In this document: one piece after another, positions 16,369-17,112 of the stretch
Layout of the letters: each line of letters starts with the position of its first letter
Position numbering within the stretch: the first letter of the stretch is position 1
Assembly: GCA_014382585.1 (NCBI GenBank)
Contig: JACNJL010000035.1
Coordinates: 67,756 to 116,741 of the forward strand
DNA length: 48,986 nucleotides
Direction of reading: 5' to 3'
Source: Limisphaerales bacterium
GTDB lineage: Bacteria; Verrucomicrobiota; Verrucomicrobiia; Limisphaerales; UBA1100
The notes under the pieces: model-generated
The model's input: the letters and a program-made list of their open reading frames with translations, nothing else
Database searches by the model: none
What the model was told of the DNA's origin: nothing
Program-made: the position numbers and the translations under genes

Positions 16369-16839
16369 TTAATAACGCACTTGCAGGTCGGGCCGTGCGG
16401 CTTTCAGTTCTGCCACGCCGGCATCGGTTACTTTGGTGGGGTACAGAAAAATCTGCCGCAGCGACCGAATGGCCGCAAGGTGTTGGAGGCCGGCATCGGT
16501 CACTTGTGTGTCGGCGAGGCTGATGATTCGCAGATTCGTGAGCGTCCGCAAATGCATTAACCCTTCATCGGTCACGCCTGTTTTGGCAAGATACAATTCG
16601 CGCAATTGCGTGTGCTTCGCGATGTCCGCCAAGTCCGCGTTGGCAATTGCTTTGCCGGAAAGATCGAAATAAGTAATGCGCCCGCGGTTATCTTTTTTCA
16701 CACCGCCCTCGCCCGCTTGAGAAGTTAACCATTCATCGCCGCCACCGCTTTTGCCCGTGCCGCCCGTGGGTGTATCACAGCCGACTAAAATAAAAGCCAT
16801 TGCCATTCCAACGAAAAAGACCGAAACAAAAAACCTCAT
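16369..16839 (-). CDS. Leucine-rich-repeat lipoprotein
   Basis: A 156-residue protein with a lipoprotein signal (MRFFVSVFFVGMAMAFILVGC, lipobox LVGC). A Gly/Ser/Thr linker follows, then four leucine-rich repeats (LRELYLAKTGVTDEGLMHL, LRIISLADTQVTDAGLQHL, LRQIFLYPTKVTDAGVAEL). It is membrane anchored and probably binds protein. It resembles the C-terminal part of the LRR protein at 4900-5448. Upstream it has both a sigma-70-like pair at 16846-16874 and, 200 bp away, a sigma-54 promoter with a hairpin in between. Confidence 0.8.
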   Translation of the reverse strand: MRFFVSVFFVGMAMAFILVGCDTPTGGTGKSGGGDEWLTSQAGEGGVKKDNRGRITYFDLSGKAIANADLADIAKHTQLRELYLAKTGVTDEGLMHLRTLTNLRIISLADTQVTDAGLQHLAAIRSLRQIFLYPTKVTDAGVAELKAARPDLQVRY

Positions 16840-16879: not shown

Positions 16880-17016
16880 GATAAAAAGAAGATCAAAATA
16901 GAAGAGAGGCGGGCACCAGAAGATGGCAACCCGCCCCTCATTCGAGGCATGTCACAGACCATTGTATCCTCAACGAAATACTTGTCTGACTTGTTGGCTG
17001 TACTAAGCCCTCGATA
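16880..17016 (-). ncRNA. Candidate sigma-54-dependent small RNA (or attenuated leader)
   Basis: The 335-bp stretch 16840-17174 contains no convincing gene. Transcription from the sigma-54 promoter at 17027-17043 would begin near 17016. It would run about 110 nt to a GC-rich hairpin (16908-16935) followed by a T-rich tract ending near 16880. Along the way GGCT-TAGTAC-AGCC and GCCTC-GAATGA-GGGGC can form small stems. The result looks like a discrete structured RNA of about 110-140 nt. Two short frames in the region have no family features or ribosome site. If read-through occurs it would instead be a 177-nt leader of the LRR lipoprotein gene. Confidence 0.35.
16883..16935 (-). terminator. Hairpin with T-rich tract
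   Basis: On the minus strand GGCGGG (16935-16930) pairs with CCCGCC (16913-16908). The loop closes further through CCA/TGG around TCTTC. The following bases, TCTCTTCTATTTTGATC then TTCTTTTT, are strongly T-rich though interrupted. It fits an intrinsic terminator or attenuator for leftward transcription. Confidence 0.5.
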
Positions 17017-17026
17017 ATAATAGTAA

Positions 17027-17043
17027 AGCAAACGCCGTGCCAA
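17027..17043 (-). promoter_or_regulatory. Sigma-54 (RpoN) promoter
   Basis: The minus strand reads TTGGCACGGCGTTTGCT. This matches the RpoN consensus TTGGCACR-N4-TTGCW at every defined position, with GG (17041-17040) and GC (17029-17028) separated by exactly ten bases. The predicted start is near 17016. A perfect 12-bp palindrome, TTCACGCGTGAA (17101-17112), lies about 90 bp upstream of that start, where enhancer-binding activators usually sit. Confidence 0.65.
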
Positions 17044-17100
17044 CCTAGGGCCATGCAAAAACCAATGGGGAAAACAAAGAAAGGCAAATGCGCATGAAAA

Positions 17101-17112
17101 TTCACGCGTGAA
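17101..17112. promoter_or_regulatory. Palindrome, possible enhancer site
   Basis: TTCACGCGTGAA is a perfect palindrome centred about 90 bp upstream of the predicted sigma-54 start. ATGCGCAT at 17088-17095 is a second short palindrome beside it. Both lie in noncoding DNA just downstream of the WD40 gene stop. The position suits an upstream activator site for a bacterial enhancer-binding protein; which one is unknown. Confidence 0.35.

Follow-up and report, generated by a model that had tools for sequence, protein, structure and literature searches.

The stretch of DNA analysed here (the window) comprises 48,986 nucleotides from a Limisphaerales bacterium (GenBank assembly GCA_014382585.1, contig JACNJL010000035.1, positions 67,756 to 116,741), and it probably contains, on its minus strand, the gene of a small non-coding RNA of ~120 nt (type A), with a homologous small RNA elsewhere in this genome that would likewise depend on sigma-54. 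The candidate unit begins with a predicted sigma-54 (-24/-12) promoter, TTGGCACGGCGTTTGCT (17043-17027, minus strand), with the exact GG-N10-GC spacing, and continues with the type A RNA (17016-16895, minus strand; 5' end predicted). The most conserved core of the RNA, GTATTTCGTTGAGGATACAATGGTCTGTGACATGCCTC (16941-16977, minus strand), corresponds to the loop and 3' arm of a 5' hairpin. An intrinsic terminator hairpin, GAGGGGCGGG...CCCGCCTCTC (16939-16904, minus strand), lies next to it, with a T-rich tract extending to approximately 16880. This hairpin is followed by CTTCTATTTTGATCTTCTTTTT, which implies an RNA of ~120 nt. Upstream, a perfect 12-bp palindrome, TTCACGCGTGAA (17112-17101, minus strand), forms a putative activator site, centred ~90 bp upstream of the start predicted at about 17016. 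The unit is preceded by a WD40 protein gene in the window and by an MR_MLE enolase-like gene instead in several relatives. The downstream neighbour, a lipoprotein gene with an LRR domain (16839-16369, minus strand), is not thought to be part of the unit.

The pattern TGGCACN5TTGCW had a single exact match in the whole window, the TTGGCACGGCGTTTGCT site, compared with an expectation of 0.08 per dinucleotide-shuffled window. The match by itself was thus only moderately surprising and merely suggestive of a promoter, and it is conservation in relatives, not the rarity of the match, that settles the question. A DNA search with 311 bases detected the unit in 12 of 58 relatives belonging to three genera, and the resulting alignment retained the -24/-12 element, a TTCACGC(G) motif upstream of the promoter, the core TTTCGTTGAGGATACAA(T)GGTCTGTGACATGCCTCG, and the terminator stem, while the intervening sequence and the neighbouring genes varied. 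A covariance model built from the RNA body alone recovered type A in 14 of the 20 genomes of its family, whose members are uncultured Verrucomicrobiota, and in four of the five genera. Its two additional copies came from a further genus (g2) and carried TGGCACG-N5-TGCT upstream, which constitutes an independent test of the promoter because the model excluded it. The same -24/-12 element was found ahead of all 14 type A copies, and the GG and GC were invariant in 25 of 25 copies when the sister RNA described below was included (14 type A and 11 type B with upstream DNA). The preliminary description of this locus had proposed a sigma-54 promoter with exact spacing, followed by a GC hairpin and a T-rich tract, and both proposals were borne out by the recovery of the unit in relatives with its GG/GC elements and hairpin retained. 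As for the palindrome, which the same description had associated with activator sites, its perfect symmetry and its distance from the start were confirmed, but the full 12-bp sequence proved particular to this genome in the alignment of relatives. It was therefore dropped as a conserved site in favour of its half-site, TCACGC, which was kept 53-99 bp ahead of the -24 element in 14 of 14 type A copies and at most 125 bp ahead of it in 7 of 11 type B units.

Outside the family, a search of 320 genomes of the order with a core-plus-terminator model found nothing convincing; the 14 weak matches corresponded mostly to terminators at gene ends, and none had a matching sigma-54 site. Three matches of a genome pattern scan outside Verrucomicrobiota (Undinarchaeales, Clostridiales, and Micrococcales) were attributed to chance since about that many were expected. 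Named records containing the core were metagenome-assembled or single-isolate draft genomes of Verrucomicrobiota, one of them labelled Pedosphaera. In the two g2 copies (L026 and L027), an insertion of purine-rich sequence, with numerous GGA motifs, enlarges the 5' part of type A.

Regarding the RNA body, the core GTATTTCGTTGAGGATACAATGGTCTGTGACATGCCTC was almost invariant between genera g1 and g5, and its GGTCTGTGACATGCCTCG part was also kept in g4 and almost so in g2. Those homologues that were examined also fold into the terminator hairpin, two of whose pairs show compensatory changes, and the folding energy of the 125-nt unit was low relative to shuffled sequences (z = -3.2). Consistent with the earlier suggestion that the transcript contains no gene, no open reading frame was conserved. 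An Rfam search returned no match at the gathering score, only chance-level matches to other families with E values of up to 5; one of these, Xoo2 (16.4 bits against a cut-off of 45), was likewise taken as chance. Taken across relatives, the comparison shows type A as an independent terminated unit, predicted to consist of a 5' hairpin, whose large loop is conserved, and of the terminator hairpin after it.

In genus g1, the type A model gave three weak matches that proved to belong to another RNA, type B, located right behind TTGGCACGG(G/A)GTTTGCT, a promoter nearly identical to that of type A; in this genome, the type B paralogue, itself a weak match of the type A model, lies at C22:23148-23258. 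A type B model, likewise built without the promoter, found the RNA in 12 of the 20 family genomes and gave weak reciprocal matches to type A, and the GG-N10-GC element preceded all 11 type B copies that have enough upstream DNA. In the type B fold, both partners had changed at 16 of 30 pairs, and 94.6% of cells were paired, in an alignment that was fitted to the model and is thus biased towards the tested fold; none of 500 shuffles reached the observed support, and slid versions gave two to four such pairs. The two RNAs share a layout consisting of a 5' hairpin, AGG..ACAG(A)CC / GG(T)CTG..CCT, a large loop, and a GC-rich terminator, and the comparison shows type B as a homologous paralogue built alike. 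A third RNA-like unit (L150, G012:C65:4636 to the contig end) was observed behind TTGGCATGGGCTATGCT, with ACAAGCCTCTAAAAA...GAGAGGC, and is cut off at the contig edge; it may perhaps be a third member of the family.

The sigma-54 system required by such promoters was present. The rpoN gene, whose presence the preliminary description had asked to be confirmed, was found in this genome as well as in all 10 family genomes that are at least 90% complete, and four sigma-54 activators with receiver, AAA+, and Fis domains are encoded in this genome. Exact matches to TTGGCAYGN5TGCT numbered seven in this genome, and five relatives had 19 exact promoter matches versus 2 for the reversed pattern. The exact sites precede flagellin, fliW (with csrA behind), pseudopilin, a tiny membrane-protein gene, and both RNAs, and a flgB-like gene is preceded by a site with one mismatch; as expected, this gene set fits that of real sigma-54 promoters. 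Some of the pseudopilin promoters carry GCGTG-N5-CACGC palindromes, which suggests that the RNAs and the pseudopilin genes have an activator in common, distinct from the flagellar one. This stays a suggestion because the good scores of the motif ahead of pseudopilin genes were matched only weakly by g1 type A and not by g1 type B.

With the conserved promoter, the hairpin, and the presence of rpoN in its support, the regulated small RNA that had been put forward as one possibility for this locus is the reading we favour, and types A and B are most likely paired small RNAs that are enhancer-activated, act in trans, and do not depend on Hfq. A phosphorylated NtrC-type activator would bind the TCACGC-type sites ~80-120 bp before the start and turn on both RNAs in response to a signal, perhaps along with the pseudopilin genes whose upstream regions contain similar palindromes. 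The RNAs would then use the conserved loop and 3' arm to base-pair in trans, independently of Hfq, this being the least certain step. Hfq (PF17209) was detected in none of the 20 family genomes, while five control genomes were positive, although a divergent Hfq could escape such detection; Hfq-type matchmaking is accordingly unlikely. Two points weigh against the small-RNA interpretation. The 5' stem of type A is backed by consistent changes only and lacks full covariation support, because its 3' arm is almost invariant. In addition, neither type A nor type B was found in G005, a 92% complete genome that has rpoN.

An alternative, also raised in the preliminary description, is that type A, transcribed from the sigma-54 promoter, serves as the leader of the following gene, here the LRR lipoprotein gene, and attenuates that gene's transcription through its hairpin. 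A same-strand gene frequently begins soon after the terminator, a similar LRR gene lies downstream at 7 of the 13 other type A loci, and type B has a constant downstream neighbour in genera g1 and g5, all of which would fit a leader. However, while genus g1 and some of g5 have an LRR gene behind type A, PSCyt1/PSCyt2/PSD1 genes take its place in three genomes (G010, G007, and G011), and in G009 the gene there is oppositely oriented, as is the gene behind type B; moreover, no conserved antiterminator partner was seen for the terminator stem. Since the downstream genes differ between genera and one points in the opposite direction, type A does not appear to be the leader of one gene, and attenuation, which we consider unlikely, lacks support as an account that would hold in general. 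The related proposal that the LRR gene has its own start-proximal promoter was not supported either: from the terminator to the gene start at 16839, the minus strand showed no sigma-70-like promoter.

The type A RNA might instead sequester CsrA through the GGA of its loop and thereby couple sigma-54 activity to a FliW-CsrA flagellin switch. In this genome, csrA is located right behind fliW in a cluster preceded by a sigma-54 promoter (G000:C61:41920-42590), every type A RNA has a GGA in or near the loop, the g2 copies have five and eight GGA motifs before the core, and the absence of detectable Hfq from the family would also suit such a role. Nevertheless, the RNA of the window has a single GGA, predicted to be unpaired approximately one-third of the time, no GGA is free in the g5 copies of type B, and the GGA richness of the g2 copies is expected from composition because their insertion is purine-rich. 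In addition, type A and csrA do not co-vary (csrA occurs in 9 of 14 genomes with type A and in 4 of 6 without it). CsrA sequestration is a rather improbable function. The joint distribution of type A and csrA or fliW across genomes was regarded as uninformative and was set aside as evidence. The sigma-54 promoter with the fliW-csrA arrangement was also observed in G004 and G005. A broader scheme combining several of these elements is doubtful: a new Hfq-less small RNA family in which one activator drives both RNAs and the pseudopilin genes, the RNAs feed a CsrA-FliW switch controlling sigma-54 flagellin genes, and one genus has evolved multi-GGA CsrA sponges.

The other explanations fared worse than the small-RNA reading. 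Transcription of the conserved RNA from an overlapping sigma-70 promoter, TTGGCA-18-TATTAT, would draw on a sequence that matches at 10 of 12 positions in this genome, but the -10 hexamer is not kept (at most 3 of 6 in most copies outside g1 type A, versus GG/GC in 25 of 25), and we regard this origin as very unlikely. A short peptide gene, for which GAGG-N5-ATG in genus g1 could provide the start, is highly improbable, given that the start codon is missing in g5, g4, and g2 and that the frames shift between genera. That the promoter and terminator are chance look-alikes is scarcely credible, for even though the rarity of one exact promoter match is only moderate, the unit is conserved in four genera and has a paralogue with the same promoter.

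Small RNAs driven by sigma-54 are known mainly from Proteobacteria and Campylobacter, and one of them, CrcZ, acts through Hfq-Crc. Type A differs from CrcZ, CrcY, and NrsZ in having no Rfam match and in belonging to a family in whose genomes Hfq was not found. CrcZ/CrcY and NrsZ are small RNAs of Pseudomonas and Azotobacter controlled by sigma-54 and a two-component activator (cf. PMC6292655). The Qrr RNAs of Vibrionaceae are also sigma-54-dependent and are activated with LuxO through upstream activator sites (PMC10162802, PMC3352281). Like Qrr, type A is predicted to be a short intergenic RNA with a sigma-54 promoter, putative upstream activator sites, and a hairpin terminator, and such RNAs sometimes occur as several homologous copies per genome. 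Unlike the Hfq-dependent Qrr RNAs, it occurs where no Hfq was found in the 20 family genomes, it has no sequence or Rfam match, and the LuxO site TTGCAWWWTGCAA was not found, at least three mismatches being present in all 25 type A and type B copies. The RpoN-linked CJnc230 (FlmE) of Campylobacter jejuni is mainly processed from flgE mRNA (PMC11187230); type A resembles it as an RpoN-linked small RNA in a bacterium with flagellar genes in its sigma-54 regulon, while differing in its own conserved sigma-54 promoter and in the lack of a flagellar neighbour. Type A shares with the CsrA sponges of the CsrB/RsmZ type the loop GGA, the csrA gene in the genome, and the GGA-rich g2 copies, whereas those sponges carry many GGA motifs in hairpin loops, in contrast to the one GGA of the window RNA and to type B copies with none free, and again there is no Rfam match. 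Our literature search, which left most subscription journals outside its reach, turned up no earlier description of sigma-54 small RNAs from Verrucomicrobiota. In a 2025 survey of sigma-54 regulons, Verrucomicrobiota are named in connection with motility, and a term search of the text found no mention of 'sRNA' or 'non-coding' (PMC12316311). A conserved pair of candidate small RNAs in Verrucomicrobiota, absent from Rfam, would offer an entry point to small RNA action without Hfq and would bear on the origin of enhancer-activated RNA regulation in another phylum; the case also illustrates how one promoter read off the raw sequence can open up a whole RNA family and regulon.

Several minor features were observed at other sigma-54 promoters. 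In three species of the genus, a perfect DnaA-box-like sequence, TTATCCACA, lies 12 bp ahead of the fliW-csrA -24 element (L052, L149, and L152) and 28-29 bp ahead of that of the tiny membrane-protein gene (L050, L144, and L160), possibly linking replication initiation with sigma-54 promoters. At the latter three loci, GCGTG-N5-CACGC is located within the tiny open reading frame, downstream of the promoter at approximately +82 from the -24 element, and this palindrome resembles the sites upstream of the pseudopilin genes.
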